The notes under the pieces were generated by a model that was not told the DNA's origin, searched no databases, and was given only the letters and a program-made list of their open reading frames with translations. Source: Megalonaias nervosa (Eukaryota > Mollusca > Bivalvia > Unionida > Unionidae). Taken from it: a stretch of DNA of 64,000 nt. The stretch covers positions 1 through 64,000 of the forward strand of contig JAECUM010003252.1 in assembly GCA_016617855.1 (NCBI GenBank), read 5' to 3'. Within the stretch, counting starts at the first letter, position 1. Every line of letters starts with the position of its first letter. Made by a program: the position numbers and the translations under genes. Below are positions 1 through 31,089 of the stretch, piece by piece.

Positions 1-3
1 TTG

Positions 4-8
<5 letters not shown>

Positions 9-88: not shown

Positions 89-90
<2 letters not shown>

Positions 91-803
91 GGACACCACA
101 TATTCAGCAGAACTTACTCCAACATAAGAAATGTATTCATTAGATTAAGTGTGCTCCAGTTTCTCTAAGTATCACAATACAATATTACAGTATTGCTGTC
201 CAACGAAATCGGACACGAACTAAGTTAGATTACACACATGACCTTTGACCTTTCAATATCTTAAAACTGACATTAACATATCAACACGCCGTGATTCGGT
301 TTATCAATGTTTTCGTCGGAAACAATAGCCGCCCTTGACAATGTAATTAGTTATTGTGCTGGCACATGAAACTGAAAAAAACGGATCACCTGTCTAATCA
401 ATTTCATTTGACCATTTCAATATTTGACCGCCAATATTTAGCTTGTGTGTTGAATAAAACGGATTCATGAAGGTATTCGCTTTTCTTCAAAGGCTTGTAT
501 TCTTTTAACTGAACCTAATGGGAGATTGAAAACCCATTTTTAAGTAAGTTAATACCCATATGGTTCCTGAAGACGATTTATAGAAACTCTGTATAGTTTT
601 AAAGCTTTGTATAAATGGCAGATATCCGCACTTTTACTATGTTAAAGGAGACCAGAAATAAAACTTTTCCATTTATGTATGTAATTCTCTACAAATTTTA
701 ATTCGATTGTAATGTTTATAAATTAAATATCGTAGGCGGGTAGTGATTATATTGCGCGAAAGATACCACGATTAAGTAAATTGCCGAGTTTTTCCGAGTT
801 TTA

Positions 804-1730
804 TGTTACGTTTAGGCTCGTACAAAAATAACAAAAGAAAAGAGTGAAGTCAACAAGCTTTGTAAATTTCACAAAATAATTTATTTCCCTAGAAAACAAA
901 GTAAAAATATGAAATAGGACTTACGGTTTGTGAATATAATCCAAAAATTAATCCTAGAATTGAAAAATATAAGTCCTATCACTAAACAGTTCTAATTGAA
1001 TCCAAGTTCGAATCTCGATGAAGTTCCAATATGGAAGGCGATGACGTCCTCTATAACCAGTTTGTGTTGATGTGTCAACAGTTCCTTATTGAGTCACCAA
1101 GAATATAATTCCGGCTTTTGAATTTCGAATAATTTAGTGAATGTCTTTGTTCAAGAATTTCTTTGAAGAAGAGTATTTTCCTGGGTGAATAATTTATTTT
1201 AAACACGAAATTCAACTCAAATGACAACAACAAGAATACCTTTCAGCCTGAAGGTATCTTTTACGACTGATCAAATCCACTAGAAAATGTCTATTTTAAC
1301 CCGCGATTTTAGATAACATGATGGCCCACGTAGTCACCCAGTTGGAACAACGCAGTATAACCACACAGCCAATAGGCACATACGCCATGGAAAAACTTAA
1401 CAAATCTTACTACAAGATTCAATAAAAAAAAAAAAAAAGTTGTTTACAAAATAGAGCTATCACGCAAGCAGAACATGACCTTGATAATGACCAATCATTT
1501 TCACTCAATGTTTACAAAATCGGAACCAAGGTCAAGAACTAAGTTAGCTAAAAATAAAAATATAGCAATGAACTGCGTTTATCAGGTCAAAACAGAAAAC
1601 TGAATTTTCCCTAAAAAATCTCAAATCCAGTGAATAAAATCATCATTAAAATAATATGTAATGAAATAAAAATAAAATAAAAGAGAATTTAAAACTAACA
1701 CACAAATGATTTAATTATATATACGTAACA
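804..1730 (+). mobile_element. Solo-LTR-like repeat, copy 1
   Basis: Starts TGTTACG and ends CGTAACA, the TG...CA palindromic ends expected of a long terminal repeat. The next bases on both sides repeat TTTA, compatible with a 4-5 bp target duplication. The same ~930-bp sequence recurs at 60290-61223 (same orientation), 26166-27088 (reverse) and, more diverged, near 41760-42150. A shared internal stretch reads AACAAGCTTTGTAAAT. No coding capacity and no adjacent retrotransposon interior, so these look like solo LTRs of one family. The family itself I cannot name. Confidence 0.7.
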
Positions 1731-2171
1731 TTTAATAAGACGACAGATCACGTGGTCATGTGACGCAATACTAGTCAGTCCTCGAATACAAACAGAAACA
1801 TGGCGAGCGCGAGAGACAGGAGACCAAATTTGGGTTGCACATTCAAAAAGTTGAATCTGCTTCCGAGATATCCGAGATATGCTCATAACAATAGCTGTTG
1901 AACTGTGTGTTAACAATGTGTTTAAGACCTTAAAGCAGAAAAGTAGAACAGTTAGAAGGTGCACATATTTCATATTTTGGAATTTTGAAAAAGCAATGTA
2001 ATTTTAAAATAAATACTTATACATTGTTTGTTGCAGTGCAAAAATGTGATAAGGATTAAGTGATGGTGCCCAATGTAAAAATTAGAAATTTACCACAATG
2101 CAATAAATTCATTGAAGAAGGATGCGGTTTAATCGTACTATATGTAAATGACATATTCATTACCTACCCCC

Positions 2172-2213
<42 letters not shown>

Positions 2214-2911
2214 AAAGACTAATATCTTGAAAATACACATCAAACACTGAAACAAAGAGATAATACTTAATTCTTGGCGAAGAGACTAGAACGGGAACCG
2301 ACTTGTGTGTGAAACAATATCCATCACCGGGGAAGTGTAAAAGGCATTGAGAACGGTTTTCATCGGTCGTAACTTAACCATTAACTTTTGAAAAATAAAA
2401 AGACCCACAAATAAATCTGCAAGTAGAAATCATAAGTAATTAATTTAAACATTAAGAAGCTTCCTTCTTATGATTCAAGCAGTGTATTTTATATGCAGGC
2501 TACAGTTAGCGTATTGACAAATCTGATAATATATATATGTCTGGTATAATAGTTAATGTACTGTACTGGTCAGTGCTCAAAGAAATTTTTTTTAGGCACA
2601 GGCCCCGGGATAGTGACTTAAATAAACTGACAAGACCTGAATGAAATTCCACAAGCACGGACAGTTCATACCTGTCAACTCTCAAGCCAGGAGAAAAACC
2701 TCCCGATTTGGGGGGTATTTCCACACCTACCTCCCGATCTCGTAATATCTCCCGATTTTTCGCAGAGAACTCCCGATTATTACATTATGTCTGTCAATTT
2801 TCATTTCTCAGAAAAAAATATACTCCAAACCATACATAAATAGATATAACGCATGCAATCCACAGATGCCATATTCTATTTTATCACTTGTGAATATTGT
2901 AGTGATGAAAT
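1731..2911. other. AT-rich non-coding flank with (CA)n
   Basis: Contains a (CA)n run at about 2169-2210. Around 2665-2790 there are three copies of the short phrase CTCCCGATTT and neighbours, which resembles the end of a DNA transposon common in invertebrate genomes, but I cannot define its limits. No gene supported. Confidence 0.5.
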
Positions 2912-3068
2912 CAGTGCCGGATTTAGGCATAAACTAAACAAGCTACAGCTTAGGGTCTCACAGTCTGAACTCACAGTCTGAAGTGGTCTCTCAAATTTAT
3001 TTTGTACCAGATAGGGCCTCTACAGCTTCCCATAGCTTAGGGCCTTGCTATGTCTAAATCTGGCACTG
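2912..3068. mobile_element. Non-autonomous hAT-type MITE with 8-bp TSD
   Basis: The 157-bp unit begins CAGTGCCGGATTTAGGCATA and ends with the near-perfect reverse complement (TATGTCTAAATCTGGCACTG). It is flanked by GATGAAAT on the left and GACGAAAT on the right, an 8-bp target duplication with one mismatch. Both the CAGTG ends and the 8-bp duplication are hAT characteristics. It has no coding capacity. Confidence 0.8.
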
Positions 3069-3076
3069 GACGAAAT

Positions 3077-4401
3077 AATTAATATCACACGACAATTTTG
3101 TTTTCTTCAGTAAATAGAATGTTAAGATTAAACATTATTCACGTAAATGTCAGATTTTTATTTTAAACCACTACAACCGTACTATAGTAAAAAAAAAATA
3201 AAAGAATAAAACTCTCACCAATTAGCTTAAATCCCATGAATGATCACTTGTGAATGCTGCGTAATTTTCTCTGCAAACAAAATCGCATCTTCATTTCCGC
3301 CAAACAAACTTCGCCAGTTAACACCTGACATTTCTCTACCGTATATGTAAAGTTTAATTACCATGATTAAATTAAAAGAAGGAATAAAACAAAAATATAC
3401 TATCCATTATATGTGCCCCCAAAGAACTCATTCAGAATAGATATTGTATTCAGTAAACAGTGTTACATGCCTTAACACTTAAACCTAAGGAAATAAGGTG
3501 GGATATAAAACGTGGGAAAAACAGTTGCCACATGTAAGGTAACTTGTAACTGCAGATTGAACTGTTAAAATGAAGTCCTATGCACCCTAAGTTACAACAA
3601 AATAAGGCATCGTTTATTTGCCAATCAATTGCTGGTACTTACATACACACACACTGTAGAACATGGTTTCTTTGAAGTATGTCCGAAGGACAGTCCTTTT
3701 CACAAGATAAATGCAAGGATAAGGATTACTGTTAATTAGTCACACTGGCTTTATTGCTTGTGTACCTAAGTCAAAACTTTAGCTATTTTGCAGTTTAGCC
3801 ACAGCTGACCAGAATATAAAAAAGGGGCCTGTCTTGGGGGATAATAAGGCGTATCACAGGGAGACATGGCGCGTCCCATGGGCACTCGCACATTGGGACA
3901 CGGGGACGGGGTCAATGTGAAACTTTGATTTTATACCTGACCTCTTTTCTTTTAATCGCTGCTATTTAAACTGCCCAAGGGATAGATTTATATCAGTCAA
4001 ATCATTACATATTACCGTTTATACATACTGCATATGTAACAATCCGAGACTGAAGGGGTTGCTGTTGTTGTTGTTTTCTTAATTTTTTTCAAAATTTGTT
4101 TAAGATTACTGAAAATTGTGTTTTCTCGAAACACGACCGTCTCTGGGGTTCAGAATCTTATTTTTAGCAAAGCTCCATTTTATTAAAATCAGATCTCAAT
4201 TTCACCTAGGACAGTGGTGATCTGATTTAGATTGTGCCGTGTTAAGGCATGTATGTCAACGTTTTGAAATACATTTACTCACTTCATCAGCGCAATCCAA
4301 GTTTCCTCAGGCAAACAAGTTTTTTCGACAAGCCCGACGGGCACCTAACTTTGAATACAGGATGGTCCCGAACTAAAATTAGAGGGGCCCCGGGTGCCGG
4401 G
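3077..4401. other. AT-rich non-coding stretch
   Basis: No open frame longer than chance, no clear tandem repeat. Low-complexity T runs and one (TTG)n run near 4060-4075. I see nothing else in it. Confidence 0.4.
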
Positions 4402-4767
4402 CTATCGGATTTTGTTTAGCACTGCTGGTGTAGATAAAAGATCTGTGAATTGATTGTTGCATTTTGTGGTCACTTTCTCGGCCTTCTGCCTATTTTCGTA
4501 ACTCACACGTTTAACACTTTTCCCAGGATTTAAAATATCCAACGGTATATATGGAACAGCGCCAACTTTTAGTCTAGGCCTAGCATTTACGTATCCTAGA
4601 GCTGCCATTTTTTCAGGATCCCTCTCGTAACATTCCTTTGAGAAATGTAATGACCACAGAGTGCTGTATGGTGTTGCTTTGAAATCGACTCGCTTGCAAT
4701 AATGTATCCATACTTTCTTTACGTCTTTATCTTTAGGAAAAGAAAAAAAAAATTGTTGTCCACAGCC
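4402..4767 (-). pseudogene. THAP-domain exon or relic
   Basis: The open frame on the minus strand (121 codons, no start ATG at its left edge) reads like the C-terminal two thirds of a THAP zinc finger. It has FPKD followed by KKVWIHYC, then FKATPYS, a position matching the family's C-x-x-H-F element, and LKVGAVPY where the family has an AVPT(I) box. THAP domains are C2CH zinc fingers that bind DNA, often in transposase-derived proteins. The Cys normally before the HF is Trp here (TLWSLHF), so a zinc ligand is missing. The frame is closed upstream by a TAA right before the first Cys-containing segment. It may be an exon of a larger gene or a decayed one; the missing ligand favours decay. Confidence 0.6.
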
Positions 4768-5323
4768 TTATTTTAATGTGCTATTACACCCGTAAGCAAA
4801 GCAAAACGGCATTGTCTTTTACTCTGGCAACTGCCAGTCGGGATGCTGGAGTCGCTACTATGACGTCACATCACGAAAGTAGCCGAATAGGCGCGGAAAT
4901 TTTGCATACGAGGTCACGGAAATTCATCTCCTTGAAAACATGCCAATTTAAATATTGGCATTACGGTCGCAGATGATACTTCAGAATAAGGTTTTCTTCT
5001 ATAGTGCCTTATTATTATTCTATATTTTCATTGATTTCTGGTCTCCTTTTAGATTTACTTAAAGGACAGTCTCTTGGAGGGCAGTGACAGTTCCTCCAGC
5101 ATGCATTTTCAAATGTTAAACCGGACACTAAAAGATCATTTAAAAGAAGATAAAAGATATTCAATACAAAGTCTACGAATGAGGGAGCAGACTGCGCGCG
5201 AGCAATGAATCACGAGGACACTGAAAGGCTTGGTTTCTAATATTGTCTGCCATACTGACAACATTAAACAGGGCAAAATCAATTACAACCTATTATATCT
5301 ATGAGTGGGTATACCATAGTATT
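4768..5323. other. Non-coding stretch
   Basis: No supported gene. A short plus-strand open frame at 4776-4976 has no recognisable domain and I do not consider it coding. Confidence 0.4.
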
Positions 5324-6049
5324 TCATTCTACAACGTAAAATGTATCACATGTTATTTATGTTTTGGTGCTGCATCTGACCAAATAACGACTATGTGTAG
5401 CATTTTCCGATGTTGACTGACATCGGAACGAAGGTCCAAATTTTCAAGAATATCTCACACTTGGCAGCACATGTTGAAGCTTTTCCATAAATTAAGGTCA
5501 TGTTGATTGAGGCGGACTTTACTTACTCTGATGTCGTTTTTCGAATAAATTCAAATTCTCAGACAAGCAGGTGGTCCGTTGACCTACATTTCAGTTGGAT
5601 GGAATGTGATGGAAGCCAGGAAGGCCGATATTGGTTAAAAGGACGATGAATATATTGAACGAAACGAAGCTATTTAAACATTTTCGTCGCTATTATTATA
5701 TCTTTTTCGTTTCGTTAAGGCAACATTCTTCAACCTAATTCGACTTTGGCATTCAGTACTTCCATCACATTCCAACCAGCTGAACGGAACATGAAAATGC
5801 GTCCACTTGCTATTGTCAGATTTTCATTCCATCAGGATCAAAACAGCTAAGTAAGTATAATCAGTTAGATTTATATTTGAGAAAGAGTGTCGATATGGGC
5901 TGCCAATTGTAAAAGATGTTCCTCAGAATGTTACATCTCGTTCTCCTGTTTGTCAACTTGGGAACACGTTACATAAGGCCGTTATTTAGGCAACAAGACG
6001 TAACACCAAAACAAACATATCATGTGATACGTCTTACGTTGTAGGACTA
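5324..6049. mobile_element. Foldback (inverted-repeat) element, about 720 bp
   Basis: The left arm (from TCTACAACGTAAAATG) and the right arm (ending CTTACGTTGTAGGA) are diverged reverse complements over roughly 330 bp each, meeting near 5685. Clear matched blocks are GTATCACATG...TTTTGGTG at the outer ends, TTGGCAGCMCAT in the middle, TTGGAATGTGATGGAAG near 5595/5765 and CGAAACG near the axis. Both flanks contain TAGTATT, possibly the target duplication. No coding capacity. The structure suggests a large MITE or foldback transposon; the superfamily is not identified. Confidence 0.65.
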
Positions 6050-7042
6050 CTTAGTATTCAGACGGTGCCGCTGCTTGAAAATTATTTTTGGTAGACAGGA
6101 AACAATTACAACAAAGCAAACCCACAAACAAATTCTTAATCATGCTGGCTTACAACACTATTCAACCTGAGAGATGTGTAGAAACAAATCTGGCATTGCA
6201 TAGCAAACTCTCAGATCGGGTTCTTTGTTAGCAATTTTCAGACAACAGGGGAGACCCAGAGCTGCTGGTGCACTACATACCTTTCCATCATATTATGGGT
6301 CTATGATGCACTATCCGCGAACAGAAATGGGTGTCTACTGTTCGTAGTTGGATGAATCTTATTCAAGGGTAGATACAGTAGCTCATGAAAACTCTCTAAC
6401 CATTAGAGTAGAAATAGAGGACAATGGTCCTGTTTAGCTGTGATGTGAGGTGTGAAATATAAAGCAATTATTTTTCGATTTCTGAAGTTCTATATAAAAT
6501 ATCCTCCAACTTCAAAGTGTTCTAATTTGTATCGCATTCATTCATGCATGAAGTCTTCAGGCGAAAGTTGGTTTTCACCATTTGAAATACAAAAGAAAGA
6601 TGCTAATAGCTTGCAAGATTTCGAACTGGGATTGCTTGAAAAAGATGACGTACGATACAAAATACTCACGAGTTCATAGTATACATTTAACAGCAGATCT
6701 TACGAATACAACAGAAGAATATACACTATGCATTGTGTGTAATTCCTAAATTTACCACATGTATACAAATGTACAAAAAAGCACTGACGTAGCCTTACAT
6801 CTCTTCCTTTTTATTATTAAAGTATGGTAACTGATGTTAACATATTAATCTTGTTTCTTTTTCCTTTCACAAGTTTCAGTGTATGGCAAACTGAAGACTA
6901 CAAGGCAAGTTAGGGTCATATGAATAGTATCTGTCGTCTGGGAGTTTAATACTTAAAATGTACGTCTTTAATAGGAGTTCAATACTTAAATGTATATCTT
7001 TCGTGTGAGTTCAATACTTAAATACGTTCAATACGTAAAGAC
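6050..7042. other. Non-coding flank with a short tandem repeat
   Basis: AT-rich. From about 6939 to 7030 a ~33-bp phrase (GAGTTCAATACTTAAAT) recurs three times just before the gene-dense element starts. A 75-codon plus-strand frame at 6452-6679 has no recognisable feature. Confidence 0.4.
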
Positions 7043-7135
7043 CTCTTTGGTGTCCGCACGGCAGTCGACAAAACCTCTGTCTGGTTCTTGCTGCTGCTGC
7101 TGTTGTTGTTGCTGTTCTCTCTGCTTCTGAAGTCT

Positions 7136-7546
7136 TTACTTCTCTGTCCATTCTTCTTGTTCTGTCTTGATTTCCTCTCTGAAGACCTCTTCTATCAGGT
7201 CTTGGGCTATGGATAACATCCTGACATTCTCTATCTCTTCAGGCTTAGGTATCTGCTTTAGCCTGACACGATGTAAATTGACGTAAGCTTCGTTCAGCTT
7301 GCCTAGTCTGGAAGGCATCTTCATCGGTTGACGAGTCAACAGTAGATGGCCAGACTGACTGACTGACTGATGGATTATAGTCGCATATGCACTCTGTGCT
7401 TTCGCGACTGGTTATAGCCCTAGGCTGGGCCCTCGGAGGTGTGGGTATGGTGCCACCACTGCCTCTCAGAGCCCTAGGCTGTGCCCTTCGAGGTGTGAGT
7501 ATTGTGCCCTCACGTCCTTCTGGGGGTATGAGTATGGTGCCATCAT
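7136..7546 (-). pseudogene. Decayed leftmost gene of the Polinton, unknown function
   Basis: One reading frame runs from a double ATG (7546/7543) to a TAA at 7136, broken by a TGA near 7467 and a TAA near 7412. The first part contains two related blocks ending in SLGL, encoded by a ~54-bp imperfect DNA duplication (AGCCCTAGGCTG at about 7416 and 7470). The second part is charged and probably helical (IPKPEEIENVRM, then LIEEVFREEIKTEQEEW). Beyond the TAA the frame stays open through a Gln run (CAG/CAA codons) to about 7043. A TATA box at 7811-7816 lies some 265 nt upstream. I do not recognise the family. It is the last minus-strand frame before the AT-rich flank. Confidence 0.4.
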
Positions 7547-8039
7547 AACCCCCTAGTTTGCATTCAGTTCACAGCACCTAGCAGCGAGCAGACATGTCCG
7601 TAGAGAGGCAGAGGCGGAAAGAGACCCGGAAAGGAGGCAGCGCAGAAACGGCACGAAAGGGCCCACGGGACAGCCATCCAAGGCACAACCACCACCAGCA
7701 ACAAGGCGCCCCGGCCCAACGGCAAGGCCGGTTTCAGTGTCAAATCTAGTCCAGTTGTACTAATGGACTGCCCTATGCCAATATTGTGTAAATCACTGAG
7801 ACCAACCCGCTTTATATGGTTCAAACGTGGACGCGATAGAAAACATCCTTACTTGGTTTTTGTTGAGTTGGAACGTTATGATAGCGAATGTCATGGTGAG
7901 GGATAGAAAGTCAAAGAGCATATATTCACAGTCTTTTTTTGAAAACAAACGACAGACACATTTTTCAAAACACAAAATTTTTTATTCAAACAAACAATCA
8001 ACCACTAACCATTAACAAGTAACAATAACATCAAACAAA
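7547..8039. other. GC-rich spacer between protease and leftmost gene
   Basis: Positions 7580-7740 are distinctly GC-rich compared with the rest of the window. A 51-codon plus-strand frame starts at the ATG near 7593 (basic, with an HNHHQQQ stretch) and overlaps an 86-codon hydrophobic minus-strand frame. Neither resembles anything I know. The rest is the 3' side of the protease gene plus the promoter of the leftmost gene. Confidence 0.35.
7811..7816 (-). promoter_or_regulatory. TATA box (TATAAA), leftmost gene
   Basis: Reads CATATAAAGCGG on the minus strand, in the spacer after the protease stop. It is consistent with the own-TATA organisation seen at other genes of the element. Confidence 0.4.
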
Positions 8040-8576
8040 TTATTTTTGACAAGGTTGACAACGTTGTGAAATCATGTGAGATTTCCATTGATGGAAGTCA
8101 TGAGGCCATTGATGTACACTACGTTTCCTAGCTAAAGACAAAAGATAGCCATAATGGTCACAAAACCATCGATCTACTTTCTCATAATTTCTAGAAGAAT
8201 TACGATCAAAATAAGTCACTAAATGTTCTAAAGGATATCCAAGACTGTATTGATGAAGAAATTACACACAATATTGTCCACACACCATGGAATCTGTGCC
8301 TTGTAATTCCACGTTATTGTATCGTGTCATCTGGGCATTTCTTCTCAAAAAGTCGATGATATTGTCTTCCAAAGGAGGTAATCCATACGAATCAAAATAT
8401 TCCACACATTCCTCCTGAGGGAAGTAGATGGCAACCCAGTGAGTTCATGGGAGATGACTGTCGTCCGTGTTGATGACATAAGCTTGATGGTCTTGAGGTT
8501 TGCGATGAGGTAGTTCATTCCTAGAAGCAGTATACGAACTATTGTTCAAAAGGTAATAAAGTTCCCAGGTATCCAT
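8040..8576 (-). pseudogene. Polinton adenain-like cysteine protease (two nonsense codons)
   Basis: This frame of 178 codons is the maturation protease of Polintons, related to adenovirus adenain and Ulp1, which cleaves capsid precursors during assembly. The catalytic layout is visible: YVINTDDS, then HWVAIYF with the catalytic His, YFDSYG with the Asp, a Gln in VELQG, and VCGQYC with the nucleophile Cys. The gene is broken by an in-frame TGA at 8445-8447, just before the His motif, and a TAA at 8262-8264, two codons after the nucleophile Cys. The rest of the frame is intact to the TAA at 8040. Its start ATG overlaps the 3' end of the preceding Cys-rich gene by 37 nt. Position after capsid genes fits a morphogenesis block. 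Confidence 0.9.
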
Positions 8577-9070
8577 TTTTTGTTTTGTTGGGTTTTTTCC
8601 ACAGGTAATGATAAGTCATCAATTCAATTCTGACTTTTTGTTTGAAACGCTCTGTCAAGTAGCCGTTTCTTCGCCTTGTCTCCGCACCCTGGGCTAAGAG
8701 AGCTTCGATGCGATAGATCTCCAGAGTAGTCAATGGAGGGCAACACTGCTTCTTCCGAGATGAGACTCCAAGCGTCGTCCAGATACTCGTCCAACTTTTC
8801 TTCTTGACTCATCCTCAAACATTTACCGTGTTGAATTTGACTGGGATGATCGTTTTGACATCCATAACAATCTTTCCTACTCAGTTCCGTAATTTTATCC
8901 GCCAGGTGTTTGGCAAAACAGGACACTAAATGTTGTTCTTGTTCTGGCCATCTGGACTTGACTACTACCTCGTCCTCTTTGTCTTGGTCTTGGGGTTCTG
9001 TTTTCATGCCATCCTTCCATTCCATTCCCAACGATTCTCTACCATTCAGTGAGGGATAGGAGTCTTCCAT
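8539..9070 (-). pseudogene. Conserved Polinton Cys-rich protein (frameshifted)
   Basis: ATG at 9070 lies 5 nt after the capsid-gene stop. The first ~110 codons are acidic, then contain the hallmark CYGCQNDHPSQIQHGKC followed by a helical acidic segment. I recall this CxGC...HPSQ..H..C module from Polinton and adintovirus genomes as a conserved protein of unknown function, possibly zinc-binding. Near 8735 the frame shifts: the continuation (EIYRIEALLAQGAE, then NGYLTERFKQKV) is in another frame and ends at the TAG at 8539. One frameshift therefore breaks it, unless two separate products are made. Without the shift the original frame ends at 8624. Confidence 0.6.
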
Positions 9071-12160: not shown

Positions 12161-13279
12161 TCACTTCTTTTTATAGTCGACTATGTGCGAAGCGTCGATC
12201 CAAGAGTCAAAACTCGACGGATATCCTTTCCAATGTACTTTGACTTCTTTGACACGCCGTTTTCCCACTTTACGAGTTCTTCGATCGAGAATGCATTCTA
12301 TCTCGTAAACGTCGTATTCTTTTTTGGTCACACGTTGTAGCTCGGGCAAGTAAAACGTTCCTTTTAACACTTCCCCGTTCATGTCTTCCAATTTATAGAC
12401 AGGAGGATAACGGCCACGCACTCGTTCAGTGACAACAAACAATTCGGTGGTCTAGTTAGGTAAGTAACCTTTGTCGAAAGTGCGTTTGGTTTTGCCAATA
12501 TGCACCCAATGTCCTGATGCCAACACTCCACCTTTCTTGGGGACAGTCACTGTTGGGGACGTACCAAACAGGCGCTCAAAGAGACGGTCACTTCGTTGTC
12601 AGGATTCACTTATTGGGGGGGGGGGGGCACGCCCGATGCTCCGATGGTAAGATTGGTTGTACGATTGAACGAGGTGTGGCAAGACGTCAATGTACTTGAG
12701 AGTGTATTGATGCGTAAAATATTTCAACATGCGTTCTCTCAAGGTGCGTTGAAAACGTTCCACGATGCTGGCTTTGGTTTCGGGATTCTCGGTGGTGAAA
12801 AAATGAATGTCACGTTTCTTCAATTCTTTTTGGAAAGCTTGCTTCAGAAATTCGGTACCTTTGTCAGTTTCCCATCGAAGAGGGTGACGACCGCTTTGTT
12901 TCAACACCAGTCTGAGGGCTCGCACTAACTCACTGCTCGATCTGGAAGTCAATGGCACGACCCAGGCAAATTTGGAAAAGACGTCGATGACGCAAAACAA
13001 ATATTTGTAGCCACGATTGTAGGAGGCCAAATGAGAGACATCGGCTAAATCGGCTTGTCATTGATGATCGATACCCTCCACTCGGGTGAGACTTCTGGAA
13101 AATTTTCGTCGAATGGGTTTGTGTAAGGTGTACGTGGCTTGTTCTTGTAGCCATCGTTGCACTTGAGGTAAACGGATACTTTTCAGCCGAGTTTTGGCAG
13201 CACGATACAATTTCTGAACTCCTCCGTAACCTGCAGGATGGGATGGATCATAGTAAATGCTGGCTAACACCTTCTCCAT
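12161..13279 (-). pseudogene. Polinton retroviral-type integrase with chromodomain (several lesions)
   Basis: A DDE-type integrase that would insert the element and create its target duplication. Visible parts in order: an N-terminal segment with YDPSHPAGYGG and VQRWLQEQATYTLHKP; the catalytic core with VIDVFSKFAWVVPL (first Asp), ETDKGTEF (second Asp) and KASIVERFQRTL (Glu); SYHRSIGRAP; an SH3-like part (FDKGYLPN, TTELFVV); and a C-terminal chromodomain (YEIECILDRR...VKEVKVHWKGYPSSFDSW). Lesions: TGA at 13058-13060 at a position where the family has Trp, a 13-G run at 12615-12627 that changes the frame, a second shift near 12575-12600, and a TAG at 12452-12454. The start at ATG 13279 is the first Met before the conserved part, but the open frame continues upstream. 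Confidence 0.94.
12615..12627. repeat. G13 homopolymer inside the integrase
   Basis: Thirteen consecutive G (C on the coding strand) directly after the SYHRSIGRAP block. It alters the integrase reading frame and could be a slippage expansion or an assembly artefact. Confidence 0.9.
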
Positions 13280-18473: not shown

Positions 18474-21400
18474 CTATCGGTCTTGGATGTTGTCCTTTTT
18501 TATATGCTGACCAATATCAGTGTGACCGTACGGTAAAGTGAAGTGGTTGGGAAGCCGTACTCGCTTCTGGTACACGATTTGATAGACTTTTTCCAAGGGT
18601 AGGCTGATGATTTGGTGTGTGGGTAAACGTACAATCTTGTGCGGTTCGTGGGTGGTCACTTTAAAATTTCCATCCTCTCCAGGCTGCAAGGCTTCTTTCA
18701 AGACGCCAAAGTTCAACAGTCGACTGGTGCGATAATTGAGAGTCAATCCTTTCACTTTACACTCCGTGTGTACTTCTCCTTCAGGGTTACGGTATTCGTA
18801 GCCGTAATGTTTGGGACCGCCACTTGCAAAACTTAGAATCTTGTTGTCGGGAAGCTCGTCCGTCCAGGCTCCTTAACGGTCTCCTTCGATGACAGGGTGA
18901 GGTTGACCTAGGTGATCGATGTAGATGCAACTGTCCGTGTCAAAATACAAAACACGATCTCCTAACAGCTCTAAAGCTTCGTACAGTTTAAGCGAGCATG
19001 GGCTGTCACGTAAGCCGCAATGATGACATTTCCAAATTCGTCGGCTTCTACAAAGTCCAGTTCTTCTTCGTAATTGACTAAGATCAAGTCCTCACGAACG
19101 ACGTCCACGTGTTTCATGTATTTGGTTTTGTCCTGAATCATCAGGAAGTAGCGAGAAGGTTCTGTGAAATTCTCCGTCTTCGGTAAACACGTTGTGCTAT
19201 TTTACCCCACAAGCAATTTAACAGCACTTTGGCAAACGATCGCCTTCCTTCGTTTTTCTCGATGTAGTCTAAAGTGATGCCTTCCTGCTCCCGGTATTTC
19301 TCTTTGAATTTCTTTTTGTCTTCGGGAGTGTTGCACCAGGAAGGATAGCCACTGGCTTCTTGTTTCAGTTTCAAAAAGGCATTCACGTAGTCTGCGAAAA
19401 TGCCTTTTTGAGTCTCGTTGCCTTTGTGGTATTTTTCTCTCTTGGGAAAGTGGTAAATTTCGTACACTTCTAACAGTTGGTATCCCAGGTCCAGAGCTTT
19501 AAACAATTCCACGCTGACCCAAGTTCCCTTCAAGGAGCGTTCTTCGTGGGTGTGCTGACAAGGTTCGTCTTCGTTGCACGTTTCGGCACAAGTACGGCAC
19601 AAGGGAAACATCAGTTTTCCTTGGCAATGGTGAGGTAAAACGGGATGATACAAGTACGTGGGAGGCAAGACTTTACACTTGATCAATCCCTCGTATTAGC
19701 GAATGTTGTCCAGGTCGATGTCTTCCGTCAGCAATTGCAGGTGCCCTGCGGGAAAGTGACAATATTTGCACACGTATGGATACAGCGAACACACGTCCAA
19801 GTATTTGATTTCCTCTCCTTTCTCTTCGTAGGCTTGGTACAGCAAACAGGTGGTATTCGTCCGTCCTCCGTACAAACTGTCCCGTGGGTTCAGTGGGTCC
19901 ACCAGCTTGTAACTTTCCACGATGCGTTTAAACTCGGGATCCGTTTTCAATCGCTGATCGTACTCGTGTTCCCACATTTCTACCACTTGGTGTCCTTGTT
20001 CTTCTAACTTCAAGCATCGCTGACAAGTGGCCTGGTACAAGTCTTCCATGGTCCGTTGTAAAAACTGATTTGTCGTGTTACGTTGACGGTAGCAGATGGA
20101 ACATCCGTGAAATAAGCACCCATTAAACTCGTACACGACCTTGGGGTTTTCTAAGTCCCACCCATCTAGCGAATACCTGCCAATGGTCTTTTCGCCTCCT
20201 CCGTTACGGGCATGTTGGATCCATTTGTCTTCCTTCTCACAAAAGTAATGTAACCAGCGTAGGACTTTGACCGAGTATTGACGTTTGACAAAGTTTGTCG
20301 TTTGCGGACTTATGACAGCCAAGGTGTTTTCGGGCATGAATCGTTGGCGGTACACTAAGGAACACGCTTTGGCAATGGTGCAGGCTTCTTTCAAAGGATC
20401 GATCCCTCCGTGCTCCATGAACAGTTCTCGAAATTTTCCACGGCAACGCCGTAAAATGTCCACGTCGGAACGACAATATTTCAACATTTCTTCCTGAAAG
20501 TCGAAAGGGTCCGAGGCGTGAGTTTGGTACCAAGCGTAGAAAGCTCCTCGTTGTTCGGTACACATGTTGTCGGGGTCGTAGTAGTGAGCCTCAGGCAAAT
20601 GGGGTAGAACGGCATGTTGATTGGCTTCGGTATTGAGAAAGTGTGGAAAATAGCCATTGGCCATTTCTGTCATTCCAAACGTTTTAGGCATTCGGCTCAA
20701 AGGCATGGCCAAGTAACTCATCGAATCTTTAAACTGCACTTGTCCCACTTGCATGGAAATGATTTTGACTCCGTTCAAAGTCACTTTAGGACGTTCGGTA
20801 CTTTGTTCCGTATAGTATCTCAAAAGAAACTGTCCATCGTATCCCGAGAAATTCTGAGCCATCATCGTGGCATAGCGATGATAATCTCTGTACCGTTCGA
20901 TGTCTTCTTGGCTCCACGTCTCGACGATGGGGTCTAAGATCCACTGGGCAAAATCGGCTAGCGTGTTCGGTCCTTGAAAGATTTTTTCACGTCATCCAGG
21001 AATCTTGATACAGTGAGGGCAATGACTACATATAGGCTCTTGGATACACTTCTCACACGCTCGGTGAGCCACGCAGAAATTAGGAATGTGAATGCCAGTC
21101 TCTTGCATGCATTTGAAATCGAGAAAGATGAAATTGCCTTTCTTCTGGTCATTATCTTCTTCTTCATGTTGGGATTGGTATTTTTGAATGTAGCAATGGT
21201 GTTCCAAGTCCACGATTTTGCGAAAAATGTGACATCGCTTCTTTCCTGAACATACGTGTGCCTTGGCACTGTTAGTACGTATGCCTTGTCCACAAGTAGG
21301 GCACAGTCTCAGGAGTTGACAAGCACGTTTCTGCTGTGAACCTTGCGTCTTTAGATATTGTTGGTAACAGGTTGAACTGACAAACGTGCGCTGACAAGCA

Positions 21401-22463: not shown

Positions 22464-22970
22464 ATGGAAGAAGCCACACAGATCGAACTTCTGATTAGAG
22501 CTTTGCGAGGTGTCATACGAAAGTTTTCTTCAGACAAGCCGACGGACTACTCCCCCTCCTTTCGAGATAAAAGTCAAGATACTTGCTATATCTGTCAGAA
22601 GAAAGGGCATTGGGCTACAGAATGTCCAGATCGTCAAAAAAGCAAGACCAGTGTCAAAAGAGACAAAAGTCAAGATATCTGTTATCATTGTCAAGAGAAA
22701 GGACATTGGTCTTCAGAGTTCCCTAAGAAACAAAAGGAGCAGGAGGTGGGGGAAGAAAAGGTACCCTCGGCAAAAGAAGAACCCCGACACGTTCAGAAAG
22801 AGAAGACAGAAAAGAACAGAAGACGAGAAAGTAGTCAGGAAGAAGAGGAGGAAAAAACTGTGAAAGTGAAGAAATTTTTAAAAAAAAAAACAGAGAGAGA
22901 GAGTGAAAGAAGAAAAAAGAGACAGAAGAAGTCTATGAACTTTTTAAAAAAGTGTGGTGTTATGTTGTGA
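22464..22970 (+). CDS. Zinc-knuckle (CCHC) protein of the Polinton
   Basis: Intact 168-codon frame on the plus strand, opposite to most of the element. A short N-terminal helix (LLIRALRGVIRKF) is followed by two tandem zinc-knuckle units of 32 residues. The first, CYICQKKGHWATEC, is a perfect C-x2-C-x4-H-x4-C; the second, CYHCQEKGHWSSEF, has Phe for the last Cys and may not bind zinc. The units begin with the same DKSQD phrase and arose by a 96-bp duplication. The rest is very charged (Lys/Glu/Arg). Such knuckles bind single-stranded nucleic acid, as in retroviral nucleocapsid. Role in the element is unknown; a packaging or RNA-binding accessory is possible. A TATA box lies 54 nt upstream. 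Confidence 0.75.
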   Translation: MEEATQIELLIRALRGVIRKFSSDKPTDYSPSFRDKSQDTCYICQKKGHWATECPDRQKSKTSVKRDKSQDICYHCQEKGHWSSEFPKKQKEQEVGEEKVPSAKEEPRHVQKEKTEKNRRRESSQEEEEEKTVKVKKFLKKKTERESERRKKRQKKSMNFLKKCGVML

Positions 22971-23150
22971 CATTGGATTGTAAAAATTTTTACCAAAATA
23001 GACCAGACTGAAAAAACGTAAGTGTCTCTTGGATTTGATTGTTTAGAATAATAAGGATCTACACTCATGCACTCACCCACATACATCATTCAGCAAACAA
23101 GGGATTTTGAGTTTTAATTGATTTTGGCAAAATGAATACTATCTCTTTTC
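22971..23150. other. 3' region between convergent genes
   Basis: No gene. It separates the plus-strand zinc-knuckle gene from the histone-type 3' end of the minus-strand coiled-coil gene. No AATAAA was recognised for the zinc-knuckle gene; AATAATAAGG near 23047 is the closest. Confidence 0.4.
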
Positions 23151-23154
23151 GAAA
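23138..23154 (-). promoter_or_regulatory. Histone-downstream-element-like purine block (minus)
   Basis: Minus strand reads TTTCGAAAAGAGATAG, its TCGAAAAGA core starting about 12 nt after the stem-loop. In replication-dependent histone pre-mRNAs a purine-rich element here pairs with U7 snRNA. The same TCGAAAAGA core occurs at the same distance after the second stem-loop at 24335-24350. Confidence 0.6.
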
Positions 23155-23163
23155 GAAGTGAGT

Positions 23164-23179
23164 GGCCCTGAAAAGGGCC
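23164..23179 (-). terminator. Histone-type 3' stem-loop of the coiled-coil gene
   Basis: Minus strand: GGCCCT-TTTC-AGGGCC, a 6-bp perfect stem with the UUUC loop of metazoan replication-dependent histone mRNAs. It is preceded by CCAAA and followed by ACTCA, where histone mRNAs have CCAAA and ACCCA. It lies 30 nt after the TGA of the coiled-coil gene, the usual spacing for histone mRNAs. By family knowledge, SLBP would bind this hairpin and cleavage would follow a few nucleotides downstream, giving a non-polyadenylated end. Confidence 0.75.
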
Positions 23180-23209
23180 TTTGGGTGTTTGTTTTTTCAA
23201 AAAACAAAC

Positions 23210-23842
23210 TCAGGAACGAGAAGCAATCCGCTTTAACTGCCTTAAGCCTTTGCCACGGCCAAGGCCTACTTCTAGACTTGCTCCTGTCAATGATTTGGCA
23301 GAAATCACTAGGGGTGGTATCTGAGGTGTAGTAACCGGATTAGACTGTTTGGCTCGGGAAGGTCTTTTTCTCTTGGGTCGTAATAAAGAAGTCTGATACA
23401 TTTGTTTCAGACTTCTTAACTCTGACAAAATGTCCAAGAGTACCGTTACCGTTTGAGGTTCACTGTTCTCCTTCTCTCCTAGACCTTGTTGCTTCTCTGC
23501 TTCTACTTCTTCCTGTCGTTTCCTTCTTGCCTCTTCTTCTTCTCGCTGTTGCTGTTCAAGGAGAAATGCTTGTTTTGCCTTTTTCTGCTGTTGTAAAAAT
23601 TTCTCCAATTCTTCTTTCTGTCTCTGTTTAAAATCCTCGATGTGTGGTAAAGAAGGAGAAGGTGGCGAAGGTACTGGTACCGGAACAAATTCTTGCGAAG
23701 AGAGAAGATCTACTAAATCCCAGTTGAAATCGGTCTCTTCTGGAAGTAGCGCTGTGTTAACTTTGGTAGCCACTGCTATGCCATCGCTTTTCGTCTCCAA
23801 AGCCGGTGCACCCCAATTCATCATCTTCTTAGTTTCAGTCAT
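23210..23842 (-). CDS. Coiled-coil accessory protein with histone-type mRNA end
   Basis: Intact frame of 210 codons from ATG 23842 (the GTG upstream is not needed). It starts TETKKMMNWGAPALE, has a Pro-rich linker (VPVPVPSPPSPSLP), a long Gln/Glu/Lys-rich coiled coil (about residues 75-125) and a hydrophobic heptad-like helix (VTVLLDILSELRSLKQMY). The basic tail (LLRPKRKRPSRAKQ ... GLGRGKGLRQLKRI) could be a nuclear or DNA-binding signal. I do not recognise the family and it is not a histone. A TATA box (23893-23900) lies ~50 nt upstream, and a histone-type stem-loop lies 30 nt after the stop. It is divergently paired with the small gene at 24075. Confidence 0.6.
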   Translation of the reverse strand: MTETKKMMNWGAPALETKSDGIAVATKVNTALLPEETDFNWDLVDLLSSQEFVPVPVPSPPSPSLPHIEDFKQRQKEELEKFLQQQKKAKQAFLLEQQQREEEEARRKRQEEVEAEKQQGLGEKENSEPQTVTVLLDILSELRSLKQMYQTSLLRPKRKRPSRAKQSNPVTTPQIPPLVISAKSLTGASLEVGLGRGKGLRQLKRIASRS

Positions 23843-23872
23843 GTTTAACAAAACAATGTCGCATCGATTCAC

Positions 23873-24074
23873 TGCGCACAGACGCTAGCGCACCTATATA
23901 GGGAATGTGACGTCACAGGTAGCTCACTTCGGATTGGAAGACAGACTCCGCGAAGTGACTGAATTTTGAAACGCGTATTGGGATTGGTGAACAATTTCAA
24001 TCCATTTCGATCCGGTCTTCCACTATAAATAAACGCGGTTCATTTCATTCCCTTCACCTGTTCCTCGTCACAAG
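23873..24074. promoter_or_regulatory. Bidirectional histone-like promoter
   Basis: Minus-directed TATA (CCTATATAGG, 23893-23902) and plus-directed TATA (TATAAATAA, 24024-24032) flank a ~120-nt centre. The centre holds a palindromic CRE, TGACGTCA (23908-23915), and two GGATTGG motifs (near 23931 and 23977), i.e. CCAAT boxes on the minus strand. Short 5' leaders on both sides (about 25 nt) follow. Divergent promoters with TATA and CCAAT boxes are typical of paired core histone genes; here they drive two non-histone frames. Confidence 0.65.
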
Positions 24075-24308
24075 ATGTGGACCAACGTAGAATCGTCTAC
24101 TTTTGCATCGTCGTTGTTTTTCCGTACGGACTTACCCATGTATGTTAAATCATCATGGACCATCATCTGGATTACAGATACGACTGTTTGGAAAACAAGG
24201 ACCTATGTGGAAAGACAAGGCTGTCTGAAGCGAGTTCTGATTTATGGACCAGAAGTTAGACGAAGTTTGAGAAAGAGAAGAAGACCGATGCGATGCCCTC
24301 TATTTTAA
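24075..24308 (+). CDS. Small plus-strand gene with histone-type mRNA end
   Basis: ATG 24075 opens a 77-codon frame ending in TAA. The C-terminal third is basic (VRRSLRKRRRPMR); nothing else is recognisable. A second frame, from ATG 24154, looks equally protein-like (DHHLDYRYDCLENKD) but is stopped by TAG after 34 codons, so a frameshift inside the gene is possible. The reason to call a gene here is context: a TATA box 43 nt before the ATG and a histone-type 3' stem-loop 27 nt after the TAA. It is not a histone. Confidence 0.45.
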   Translation: MWTNVESSTFASSLFFRTDLPMYVKSSWTIIWITDTTVWKTRTYVERQGCLKRVLIYGPEVRRSLRKRRRPMRCPLF

Positions 24309-24334
24309 CGAAATGGTGTTAACATAAAAACAAC

Positions 24335-24350
24335 GGTCCTTTTCAGGGCC
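24335..24350 (+). terminator. Histone-type 3' stem-loop of the small plus-strand gene
   Basis: Plus strand: GGTCCT-TTTC-AGGGCC, a 6-bp stem with one G-U pair and the UUUC loop. It is preceded by CAAC and followed by ACTTCC. The purine-rich block CTCGAAAAGATA begins 12-13 nt later (24362-24373), mirroring the arrangement at 23138-23179 in the opposite direction. Confidence 0.72.
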
Positions 24351-24371
24351 ACTTCCTATACCTCGAAAAGA

Positions 24372-25070
24372 TATTTATTATCACTTTGCCTAAAAAAATT
24401 TTTATTCGATTGTATAACTCATGTTTAACTCACAAAAACATTATTCTCTTACCTAAATATTTTTTTTTCAGTCGGTTGTATAATTTGGGTAAGATAGATT
24501 GATGTTCATCAATCTATGGAAACGAACGTGAAGGCATAAAACATACTATACTATCCACTGACACGAACGCGAATGCATAAAACTTTGTATAGAAATGAAA
24601 CAGTTGCAAGTGTCCAGTACCGTGACGTCCTACTAACCCATGGTGTGCTAGTCGCTATACAAAATTCCCATTGTCCGTAGAGTGTCCTAGGGTGATATTT
24701 TGTCCGTAGAAATCTTGTCCGTAGGGTACAAAACAGGGTCCCGTAATGCTAATTCCCATTGTCCGCAGGGTATCCCCATATACTACGTATGTGCAGATTT
24801 AGATGTCAGGTTCTACCATGTCTCTAACTTTCTGGCATGCTTTATACTTTCCAAGGAATGAACAAATGATAAACATTCTGCGTTTTAATGCATTGTTCAT
24901 TTTCCATAAGGAGATTTTGTCTCACAAAATGTTATTAGAAATGGGATGAGAGAGAAAGAGCATATTATGTAGTAAAACCTAATGGGTATTTAGTTTTCCT
25001 TCAAAAATGTTTTCCTAGCATTTTTCTTTGCACATCCAACAAAAACCCTCTTACTGGCCTCACTGTTTAC
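24372..25070. other. Right edge of the element: short hairpin and subrepeats
   Basis: AT-rich. A perfect 11-bp-arm hairpin lies at about 24491-24514 (ATAGATTGATG / CATCAATCTAT). A ~33-bp direct repeat with CGAACGYGAAKGCATAAAAC lies at about 24524 and 24563. TGTCCGYAG occurs four times in 24670-24770, twice within AATTCCCATTGTCCG. This is where a terminal repeat of the Polinton would be expected, but I found no inverted copy on the left side. Confidence 0.4.
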
Positions 25071-25479
25071 CTTAACATAGACTGATACACCTAACTTAAC
25101 ATAGACTGATACACCTAACTTAACATAGACTGATACACCTAACTTAACACAGACTGATACACCTAACTTAACATAGACTGATACACCTAACTTAACATAG
25201 ACTGATACACCTAACTTAACACAGACTGATACACCTAACTTAACATAGACTGATACACCTAACTTAACATAGACTGATACACCTAACTTAACATAGACTG
25301 ATACACCTAACTTAACACAGACTGATACACCTAACTTAACACAGACTGATACACCTAACTTAACATAGACTGATACACCTAACTTAACATAGACTGATAC
25401 ACCTAACTTAACACAGACTGATACACCTAACTTAACATAGACTGATACACCTAACTTAACATAGACTGATACACCTAAC
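25071..25479. repeat. 24-bp minisatellite, about 17 copies
   Basis: The unit is CTTAACATAGACTGATACAC plus CTAA, with the only common variant ATAG/ACAG. Because the period is divisible by three, the minus strand is open for 163 codons (LGVSVYVK repeated); I consider that frame a by-product. Confidence 0.95.
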
Positions 25480-26165
25480 ACATTTTACGTTGGAAAATTT
25501 TATCTTTTTCATGTTTTAAATGATGCTTTTTCTTCTACTATATATTTACCATAATAAAACTGTATTCTCTTTGATGGATCTTTTGCACTATCTTTGCAAT
25601 AAATATTATTAAAATATGTTGAATTTATATCGATAATAGTCCTGAATCCATCTTCAACATGAAATAAATATAAGCAAGGCTCTTTCTTTGCTTGTTGCAT
25701 GAGAAAGAAAGATATTATAATGTACATTTTCACTCGTAAATAATTTGAGATGACTTACAAAACAAATAGCTTGCTTTAAATATTGCTCTAAAATTGATTC
25801 GAAAAACCGCTTTATTTCTTTGAGAATACATTAATATGTATTAAAACTATATCATCCTACCGGTTACACCAGTAGCTAGTCCTTTATTATCACAGAAATT
25901 AACGTATTAGCCTACACTTTCACGAGACCTATTTGTGCCTTAGATCGCCACTTTTGATTCGTCACGTGACCATATTACCAGCAGTCAGTATCTATTTCTA
26001 CATCAGGAAACCCCTATGTACGTCCAAGTGTGACCTTCATTATATATAACTGAATTCACGGCCTTTATTTTGAATCAAACAAAAATGGCAAAGTTATGAA
26101 AATATATTTAGTATTGGGGGGGGGGTAAATATAGCAAGACGTGTCTTAGGATAGATCTAGATATG
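25480..26165. other. AT-rich non-coding stretch
   Basis: No gene or repeat that I can support. A G9 run lies near 26117. Confidence 0.4.
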
Positions 26166-27088
26166 TGTTATGTATATTTAATTTAATTGTTTGTTTGTTA
26201 GTTTTAAACTTTTTGTTTCATTTTATGCTATTGTAATGTAACATTGTATGGTGTACTTGACCTTGTCCAAAACTGAGTTCATTTCTGCTTAACCTGATTG
26301 ACTTTTTTTAATTTCATTTATGTAAACAATTAATAATAGCTTCATTATTCTCCATGTGTATGAGCTTATTAACAGAATTATTATTCAGGAATACAAGAAG
26401 GAGTAAATATGTTGATTTGGGTCAGGGTTTTGGAGATTCCTAAGTGAATTTTATAGGCTATTGTGTTGTAAATAAACAAGGCTCATTAGATCATTCTAGA
26501 AGGTTATTTTCCATTAGGTAATGGTTATGTTTAGAAAATGATAATTGTGACCTGAGGTCAAGCAGAGAACTATATGATCTTGTGACTGTGAGGATTTTAC
26601 CAGTCGTGCCGTAACATCTAGCACTTTAAGTTGTATTGTGTTGTGACCAGTTTGGGCTGAATTTTATTTTCTTCAAATTATTGAATTCAAGTGATTATTT
26701 TATCTGGAAATACAAAGGTGCTCGGATAAAATTCTTGGATAAAGACATTCATTGGAATCTATACTGCATTCAAACCTGGAATAACATTTCTGTGATTCAA
26801 CAAGAGACTGTTGACACATCAGTACTTCGTAGGCTATAACAGACACGTCATCGCCTTTAATTTTGGATCTCTTCGGGACTTGAACTGAGTTTTATTCAGG
26901 ACTTTTTATTACTAGGACTTGTGTCTTTAATTCTTGGATTATTTTTGGATTTAATACGCAATGCCGTAAGTTCTTTTTTCTCATTTTTCACATTGTTTTC
27001 TAGGCAAATAAATTATTTGTTAAATTTTACAAAGCTTGTTGTCTTTGCTCTTTTCTTTTACTTATTTTAAGAGCACAGACTCGTAACA
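26166..27088 (-). mobile_element. Solo-LTR-like repeat, copy 2 (reverse)
   Basis: Begins TGTTATG and ends CGTAACA, i.e. the reverse complement of the ends of the copies at 804-1730 and 60290-61223. Shares their internal sequence (ACAAAGCTTGTTGTCTTTG near 27030). Confidence 0.65.
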
Positions 27089-27119
27089 TACGTCTTAATG
27101 ACTGAAAAATTGTTAAAGC

Positions 27120-28040
27120 TACGTTTAAAATTCCAAAATCACACGTCTTAAAACAGGGAATGGCGGGTCTTGAGTTAGACGTGTCTAATAGGGTTGAGAT
27201 GGACGTGTTTCGAGATAGAGTATAGAGTTAGGTGTGCCTTAGGATAGAACTGGATGGTGCTAGATATATCTAAGATAGAGCTCGATATAGTTAAATGTGT
27301 CACAAGATAGAACAAGATAGCGCTAGACGTGTCTTAAGACAGAGCTAGATATGTTGTATGCTAGAGCCCGACATGCCGTAAAATAGACCTAGATGTGCTT
27401 TAGGATAGAGTTATACAGATCTTAACTTGGACTTGACGTGTCGTAAAACTGAGCTAGACGTGCCTTACGAATGAACTAGATAGAATTCAACGTCTCGTAA
27501 GATAGAGTTGTACATGTTAAGACAGAGCTAGAAGTATCTTAAGATAGAGCTATATGTATTGTATTTTAGAGCTCGACGTGTCTTAAGAGAGGACAAGATG
27601 TGTCTTAAGATAGAACCTGACGTGTCTTAAGAGAGGACAAGATGTGTCTTAAGATAGAACCTGACGTGTCTTAAGAGAGGACAAGATGTGTCTTAAGATA
27701 GAACCTGACGTGTCTTAAGAGAGGACAAGATGTGTCTTAAGATAGAACCTGACGTATCTTAAGATAGAACTAGACGTATCTAAAGAGGGAGAAAGATTTG
27801 TCTTAAGACACAGCTCGACGTGTTTTAAGATAGACCTAGAAATATCTTAGGTAGGAGCTTGACGTGTCTTATAAAAGAGCTAGACATGTCTTAAGCTAAA
27901 TCACGACGTGTCTTATGACAGAAGAAGATAAATTATAAGATTGAGTGGGACTTGTCTTCTAATAGAGCAAGACATATCTTCTAATAGAGCTAGACATGTA
28001 TTCTAATAGAGCTAGACATGTCTTACGAAACCGCTCGATC
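27120..28040. repeat. Degenerate ~22-bp repeat with a 44-bp higher-order core
   Basis: Built from CTTAAGATAGARCTAGACGTGT-like units. In 27574-27755 a homogenised 44-bp double unit (GACGTGTCTTAAGAGAGGAC ... GATAGAACCT) is repeated four times almost exactly, a recent local amplification inside an old array. Confidence 0.8.
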
Positions 28041-29040
28041 TGTAAGCACTTAATGCATATCCTATGATATCTAGCAAAATGTACGTTTGAGCGAGCACGA
28101 CGACTAACGGTTTAGTAATAATAACAAGCGGTATTCAGTGACGTGTCAACCACCCAAGCAACCCGGAAAGGGTTGGGAAGGCAGGCCCAGTGGGAGTCAA
28201 AATTCCCATCAAACAACATTTTGTCTCTTGGGAGGGGAACCCAGAATTAAGTTTAGCGGGCGGGATAGGGGTGGTGGGTATAATTTGTTGCTTCGCCACT
28301 GGACGGCTATGACCGATCACAAAATATTCACAATAGTACGGATATAATTGGTACTGTGATGCAACGAAATTTCGTGCTTTTTAACGATGGATTATTAAAT
28401 ACCTTCGTTTTACTTTAAATCTATCTCCGAAAATGTATCTTTGATTTAGAAAGGGACAGCCATTTCAACAAACAAATCAGTATTTCATTTGTAAAAACCT
28501 ATAATACCCATGTTTGTGTGTATGTTTGAAAATTTTTAATTTAAAAAGAAATGAAAAATGTCGCAATTCTGGGCTTAAATCTACTCCCCGTTTGTTACTT
28601 TGGAAGTAAAATGATATTTCTAGTCTCTGAATAAATGGATCTGAAGAAAATATATCACTTGTATGCACTTAAAGAAAGTATGACAAGTTTTTAGATCCAT
28701 AGACCATTTCTCGAAATAAGGTACACAGGCATTGACATCACAGATTTTGGAATCAAAAAGAGTGTCATCAACTCATTTTTATATCTATTTCCAATTGCCA
28801 GAAACTATTTCAGCTGTTGTGAATGGTACAGTTTAGACTTTCATGCATTCAGAGCCAAACCTTTGTCTATTCCTTGTAGTGTACCAAACCAAAAGCCCCA
28901 CTAGATCCCGTGTTATGGCTCTGTGTATCATCTTGAATAGACAAAGCGACCTCGCTTCTATAGAAAATTTTCATTAAATATCTGATTTTATAATTCACGT
29001 TAAGACAGATGAACTTTACGTTTTATATGGTGCAAATGTC
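28041..29040. other. Non-coding stretch
   Basis: No gene supported. Overlapping frames at 28135-28347 on both strands have no recognisable domain. Confidence 0.35.
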
Positions 29041-30010: not shown

Positions 30011-30169
30011 TATTCACGTTATAGAAGTACTCTAGGGGTGAAGAAAATACATGGAAAAAACAATTATGCAATCAAGTTTTGCTTGCATCCAAAGTAACTT
30101 TAAATTCAAAGATATACAAACTTGTGACATAGCGATATGTATAATACGCGTAGTGTAATGAAAGAATTC

Positions 30170-30615
30170 TAGACTAAGTCTGATGTCTCCCAGTCTAAGT
30201 CTGACATATCCCAGTCTTAGTCTGATTTCTCCCAGTCTAAGACTAATGTATCCCAGTCCAAGTATGGTGTCTCCCAGTCTAAGTCTGATGTCTAACAGTC
30301 TAATAATGGTGTCTCCCAGTCTAAGTCTGTTATGTCCCAGTCTAAGTCTGATGTCTCTCAGTCTAAGTATGGTGTCTCCCAGTCTTAATCTGATATCTCC
30401 CAGTCTAAGGATGCTGTATCCCAGTATACGTCTGATGTCACACAGTCTAATTCTGATGTCTCCCAGTTCTAGTCTGATATCTCCCAATCTAAGTCTGATA
30501 TCTCTCAGTCTAAGTATGGTGTATACCAGTTTTAGTCTGATGTCTCCCAGTCTAAGACTGATGTCTCCCAGTCTAAGTATGGTGTATTCCAGTTTAAGTG
30601 TGATTTCTCACACCT
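30170..30615. repeat. 21-bp minisatellite
   Basis: Unit CCCAGTCTAAGTCTGATGTCT with substitutions, about 20 copies. The period divisible by three keeps both strands open (151 and 162 codons); these frames are not considered genes. Confidence 0.9.
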
Positions 30616-31089
30616 TTAATGAGAAACACATTGTATTTCACAGCCTTGATTTGCTTGAAAAGTACACATAATAATTAATTTGTTTACATATTCATTGACA
30701 TGCTTTCAAAAATAATTAATATAAAGCATTTAGGATGCTTATTTACGAGAACAACGTGTTCATTATGGAATTTTCCCTTTTATTCTATCCAGGGCAGTTT
30801 ATTTATCCTAATACATGCATTCCAACAAAAACCTTCAAGTTAAGGTCACTCTCAAGTGTCTCATATCGTTTTAATTTACAACATACTGGTTATACCACTG
30901 AAAGTAATGATCTGCACGCGTCATGGAATAATAATCCTTGAATTTGCGGGAGGCAGTTGCCTACACTTTTGTCTTCCTAACTTGTCAGTGATCTGTTAAT
31001 GTTAACTGTGTTAGTTACTTCTAATGGCCTAAAACACAAAACTAGATGCTAAAACAATATTGTACGTGAATATATTCTTGGCAACAAGA

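Follow-up and report, generated by a model that had tools for sequence, protein, structure and literature searches.

To our knowledge, the only genes served by the SLBP/U7 pathway of animals are the replication-dependent histones. In the consulted parts of two papers, histone pre-mRNA is described as bound by SLBP at a stem-loop and by U7 at a downstream element, then cut 3–6 nt past the hairpin and staying without poly(A), with the active processing machinery present in S phase (PMC1924863; PMC9756948). Another source, likewise consulted in part, describes adintoviruses as having DNA polymerase B (PolB) and a chromodomain-bearing integrase, and reports histone-like 'Histoid' proteins of some animal DNA viruses (PMC11071296). 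A literature search covering titles and the openings of abstracts returned no earlier report of mobile elements, Polintons included, with histone-type 3′ ends, and no paper joining the histone stem-loop with a Polinton. Here we compare with these systems a 64,000-nt stretch of the genome of the bivalve Megalonaias nervosa (contig JAECUM010003252.1; hereafter the window), in which the sequence supports putative 3′ processing signals of histone type on Polinton genes that do not encode histones. The signal was studied at the DNA level in one host genome.

A Polinton copy with two histone-type 3′ ends

The element in the window is bounded by terminal inverted repeats at 802..1160 and 26729..27090 (76% identity), beside which the flanks shown hold no clear target duplication. 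It contains two minus-strand pieces of a viral-type DNA polymerase B (19699..20865, PF03175, E 1.6e-20; 19144..19611, PF03175, E 5e-8) and a chromodomain as in Polinton/adintovirus integrases (12164..12382, minus strand, PF00385, E 3.5e-10), the catalytic part of the integrase having no Pfam match in the tested window ORFs. ORFs at places fitting capsid proteins, packaging ATPase and protease had no Pfam match, and any naming of them is by eye. Two genes that other copies carry, D and E, were not found in this copy, and a third, F, ends early, its minus-strand remnant (7139..7324) lacking the gene end and the stem-loop by comparison with other copies. Because its polymerase is in pieces and its gene F is cut short, the window copy is a relic. 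Tandem repeats with units of 24, 22 and 21 nt were also seen, at 24972-25571, 27314-28044 and 30087-30653, the first of these within the element, on the stretch from the small gene to the right repeat; a weak tRNA match (32.8 bits, 58282-58354, minus strand) lies outside the element.

Both signals sit between the inverted repeats, behind two divergent genes. The coil gene (23210..23842, minus strand) encodes a 210-aa protein with 19 relatives, an acidic N-terminus, helices at residues 68-119 and 127-153 and a basic tail; its AlphaFold2 model has a mean pLDDT of 65.9 and is confident in the two helices only. The small gene (24075..24308, plus strand) encodes a 77-aa basic protein with two relatives. 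A plus-strand ORF of 168 aa (22464-22970), which has two CCHC zinc knuckles (PF00098), faces the coil gene.

The original prediction had placed a histone-like hairpin 3′ of each of these genes, in opposite orientations, and both are present, with the stems, loops, flanks and purine block that it described. It had put the hairpins 27–30 nt past the stops, which is right for the coil gene (30 nt) and wrong for the small gene (26 nt). On the minus strand the coil-gene hairpin reads CCAAA-GGCCCT-TTTC-AGGGCC-ACTCA, with the stem-loop at 23164..23179, and it matches the Rfam histone family RF00032 at 38.3 bits over 23139-23184 (E 1.2e-7 for the window), above the gathering cut-off of 34. The block TCGAAAAGA begins 11 nt beyond the stem (23144..23152), in the place of the histone downstream element as judged from sequence and alignment. 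The plus-strand hairpin of the small gene, GGTCCT-TTTC-AGGGCC (24335..24350), scores 29.6 bits over 24330-24376, which is below the gathering cut-off of 34 (E 8.7e-5 in the 26 kb searched); the same block begins 12 nt beyond its stem (24363..24371), likewise placed as a downstream element by sequence and alignment. With E up to 5, RF00032 matched nothing further in 8000-34000, and it had no match in 1-9000; over these two scanned ranges the signal is absent from the remaining genes of the window copy. AATAAA and ATTAAA within 250 nt of 13 window genes were rare with and without a stem-loop, and did not separate the two classes.

Spread of the signal and the genes that carry it

The 2.19 Gb host genome contains 6,529 exact matches to GGYCCTTTTCAGGGCCAC followed after 9–16 nt by AAAAGA, and 4,013 to AGCCCTTYTCAGGGCTAMC followed after 6–16 nt by AAAAGA; each pattern read backwards has none. 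Together these are 10,542 places, assigned to genes in samples only. A genome search with RF00032 gave at least 75 matches (75 of 423,121 candidates were scored, and the list does not include the hit in the window), 66 of the 75 lying above the gathering cut-off. With related copies, many of them relics, these counts are not numbers of independent events. The excess of stem-loops in related elements that the original prediction had put forward for testing is large.

All 75 of these loci were fetched and read. None has a match to H1, H2A, H2B, H3 or H4 at E 1e-4, and since no histone gene occurs at any of the 75, the signal there does not come from a host histone-gene fragment, an origin that the original prediction had named as its possible undoing and that is ruled out at these loci. 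In 46 loci a sense-oriented coil or small gene precedes the stem-loop by no more than 400 nt. Among the other 29, 21 match gene family C or D (two of these 75 loci supplied the queries, and no filter by place was applied to the matches) and eight match no query (L019, L021, L022, L032, L038, L061, L069 and L075), the C-terminus of D being visible by eye in L032. Six consecutive sites from the list of the G-C pattern (GGYCCTTTTCAGGGCCAC type) lie behind small (three), D (two) and coil (one). By their sequences the coil, small, C, D and E genes do not encode histones: their proteins match no histone family in Pfam, as had been claimed for coil and small. We infer the products of coil, small, D, E and F to be regulatory or DNA-associated accessory proteins. 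Those of D and C have basic, tryptophan-rich C-terminal tails.

The element family has at least five signal-bearing genes, with D, E and F at one end and coil and small at the other. The repeated order is D (minus), about 1.0 kb to E (minus), about 0.95 kb to F (minus), about 16 kb to coil (minus) and 1.19 kb to small (plus); the coil-to-small stem spacing in the window is 1,156 nt. Examples of pattern sites in the D-E-F-coil-small order are C16 (229575, 230657, 231591 and 248097 on the minus strand, 249282 on the plus strand) and C161 (252155, 253166, 254132 and 270242 on the minus strand, 271431 on the plus strand), D and E having been read in both (L090, L093) and F, coil and small assigned by stem type and spacing. 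Ten loci chosen by spacing, and so not random, hold D (seven) or small (three), and E, with an AGCCCT stem, accompanies D in six of the seven; F was read ahead of an AGCCCT stem in L016 and L088. Same-strand neighbours no more than 1.7 kb apart among 168 listed sites comprise 17 F-E and 14 E-to-next pairs, a count that leaves out 32 of the 100 listed A-T-pattern rows, which lie beyond the contig range of the G-C-pattern list. C1292, a D/E/F locus, adjoins DNA that is 86% identical over 974 nt to the element in the window.

Among the genes read, the signals lie 15–36 nt past the stop codons (D 15–17 nt, C 23–27, E 27–34, F about 30–36). The E reading frame of L088:4632-5216 (minus strand) enters its own stem-loop; in L001, L005 and L059 the stop of E is 27–30 nt ahead of it. 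The end pair of the stem is A-T in E and F and G-C elsewhere, with genome counts of 6,529 for G-C (in a pattern with slightly different flanks), 4,013 for A-T, 38 for A-C and 30 for G-T. In E and F the pair changed as a unit, a single paired change that many copies have inherited rather than thousands of separate ones.

Since choosing genes by their own stem-loop was to be avoided, the other gene of the divergent pair was examined in the 46 coil/small loci. The second gene was matched to its end in 33, and five of these had tails too short, leaving 28 evaluable genes, which are copies related to one another and not independent. At 15–80 nt, a stem-loop within one mismatch of GGCCCTTTTCAGGGCC was present in 19 of the 28, within two in 21 and within four in 26, and the downstream block is kept in 25. 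Seven of the genes fall short of a good stem-loop; two of these, L015 and L052, still have the block but little of the stem-loop. None of 5,000 control windows of 120 nt came within four mismatches of the stem-loop. These controls, together with the 10,542 forward matches against none backwards, rule out a chance hairpin and bear out the earlier claim that the arrangement was unlikely by chance. Identity by section is 0.95–0.97 in the stem-loop versus 0.51–0.63 in the stop-side spacer, values that are biased because most of the loci in that sample were chosen by their stem-loop.

Protein relatives beyond this host number 19 for coil (64–86% identity), seven for D and two for small, all on contigs shorter than 2.3 kb. 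Among relatives in environmental data, coil P0015 and small P0028 have frames that run past the usual stop into WPISGPPTSLEKR and KPFSGPLTLLEN, respectively; these extra peptides appear to fit a translated stem-loop and its surroundings, except that P0015 differs from the form here in one codon and P0028 in the block. IMG/VR, queried with an ATPase-like ORF, the coil alignment and a PolB piece, gave no relative. An exact stem-loop scan of IMG/VR had one match, on the strand opposite a 2,055-aa ORF in a phage-like contig, which was taken as chance.

Host histone genes, processing RNA and promoters

A search of the host genome with PF00125 gave at least 11 matches (28 of 28 candidates scored), and these histone loci were scanned by exact search for the 6-bp stem. 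A histone stem-loop was present in two of the 11, L076 (an H2B) and L079 (an H2A); it reads GGCCCT-TTTC-AGGGCC in each and is followed by GTAAAAGA and AGAAAAGA, respectively. This stem-loop is identical to that of the element, and AAAAGA follows at the same spacing. A third histone stem-loop, nearly intact, lies in the H2B-like stretch of L081. When one copy of each of six element gene types was aligned with host H2A and H2B, the stem cells were paired in 48 of 48 cases and AAAAGA was invariant in all eight rows; the covariation score of this alignment was reached by 15 of 500 shuffles. The genome search for host U7 with RF00066 had no match (scored: 65 of 657,865 candidates). A U7-like pattern occurred 23 times, against 34 backwards; 12 of the 23 were read, and none had a convincing 3′ hairpin.

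The divergent promoter region between coil and small (23843..24074) contains GATTGGTnnnnnATTTCAATCC at 23982-24003, GATCC at 24009-24013 and TATAAATA at 24024-24031. The first of these, in the small-gene promoter, is common to the host H2A promoter with a score of 29, where 2,000 Markov controls had a 99.9% point of 29 and a maximum of 30; host H2B upstream DNA had no such match. This likeness to H2A, in one promoter, is suggestive only. The likeness does not extend to D, E, F and C. Their start codons are preceded by a different block, which is GGGATGTTTnCnTTCACGTCCGTGCTT...TATATAAAGC or a near form in D, E and C and a looser version in F (read in L096, L091 and L099 for D, L088 for E and F, L016 for F, and L049 and L051 for C). 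We propose that this block, which differs from the coil/small promoter, may switch the left-end genes jointly.

The 3′ ends of D and small have about 70–90 nt in common, including DNA past the block. Outward of the stem-loop, the small-gene DNA of the window resembles the D-gene DNA of other copies, window 24326-24719 being similar to L088:2862-3189 and window 24331-24401 to L099:1369-1439, as if the terminal repeats had once extended to both the D and the small stem-loops.

Readings of the signal and known systems

Because five genes end in a histone-type stem-loop and AAAAGA block, we predict that the host SLBP/U7 machinery cuts their mRNAs. SLBP would bind the element stem-loop, U7 snRNA would pair with the AAAAGA-containing block, and the transcript would be cut between the two, giving element mRNAs that are predicted to lack poly(A) and to be stable, with most of their translation in S phase. 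A nuclear DNA element would probably gain by having its accessory proteins made at a time of ample replication proteins and nucleotides. We consider it quite probable, on the DNA comparisons above, that the Polinton routes this set of five accessory non-histone genes through the host SLBP/U7 histone pathway. We incline slightly towards the fuller account, in which the five genes would be made in S phase via that pathway and more than 10,000 seeded ends would perhaps compete with host histone supply.

The signals could instead be left over from captured host histone 3′ ends, perhaps with a promoter too, and carried unused. The GATTGGTnnnnnATTTCAATCC match shared with H2A, at the 99.9% point of its controls and one below their maximum, would fit such a capture, as would the long stretch common to the D and small 3′ ends; however, H2B upstream DNA offers no such match, at least five unlike genes carry the signal in differing surroundings, their end pair has been jointly changed, and the signal is retained in 21 of the 28 second genes of pairs, all of which makes an unused leftover rather improbable. 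We give still less weight to a hairpin that acts as DNA when the element replicates, is packaged or recombines, its resemblance to the histone signal being convergent. Its presence near both element ends and the similarity of the D and small 3′ ends would suit that role, but a DNA hairpin needs neither a position shortly past stop codons, nor histone flanks, loop and block, nor identity with the host histone signal, and the element's signal has them all. It is just as hard to credit that the copies are a decoy drawing SLBP or U7 from host histone mRNAs and not processing their own genes: exact signal copies exceed 10,000, against at least 11 PF00125 histone matches, yet the sites read stand singly behind coding genes, as expected of a 3′ end. 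Processing of the element's own mRNAs by the histone pathway is thus the reading we prefer. If true, it would mean a non-histone regulon of the SLBP/U7 pathway within a virus-like DNA element and a concrete route for Polintons to couple expression to host replication, and poly(A)-selected RNA-seq would miss such element transcripts.

The element's signal resembles the metazoan histone mRNA 3′ end (RF00032) in its 6-bp stem, 4-nt loop and CCAAA/ACC-type flanks, and in an AAAAGA block 11–13 nt past the stem, as in host H2A and H2B; unlike metazoan histone genes, the genes that bear it are non-histone and reside in a mobile element, and their processing is predicted only. With Polinton/Maverick elements and adintoviruses the window element shares PolB, a chromodomain and terminal inverted repeats, and it differs from the known ones in an accessory-gene set with histone-type 3′ ends. 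The 'Histoid' viruses, as the consulted part of their description presents them, are a further case of animal DNA viruses borrowing from histone biology; in those it is a protein that is histone-like, whereas in this element it is only the mRNA end signal.
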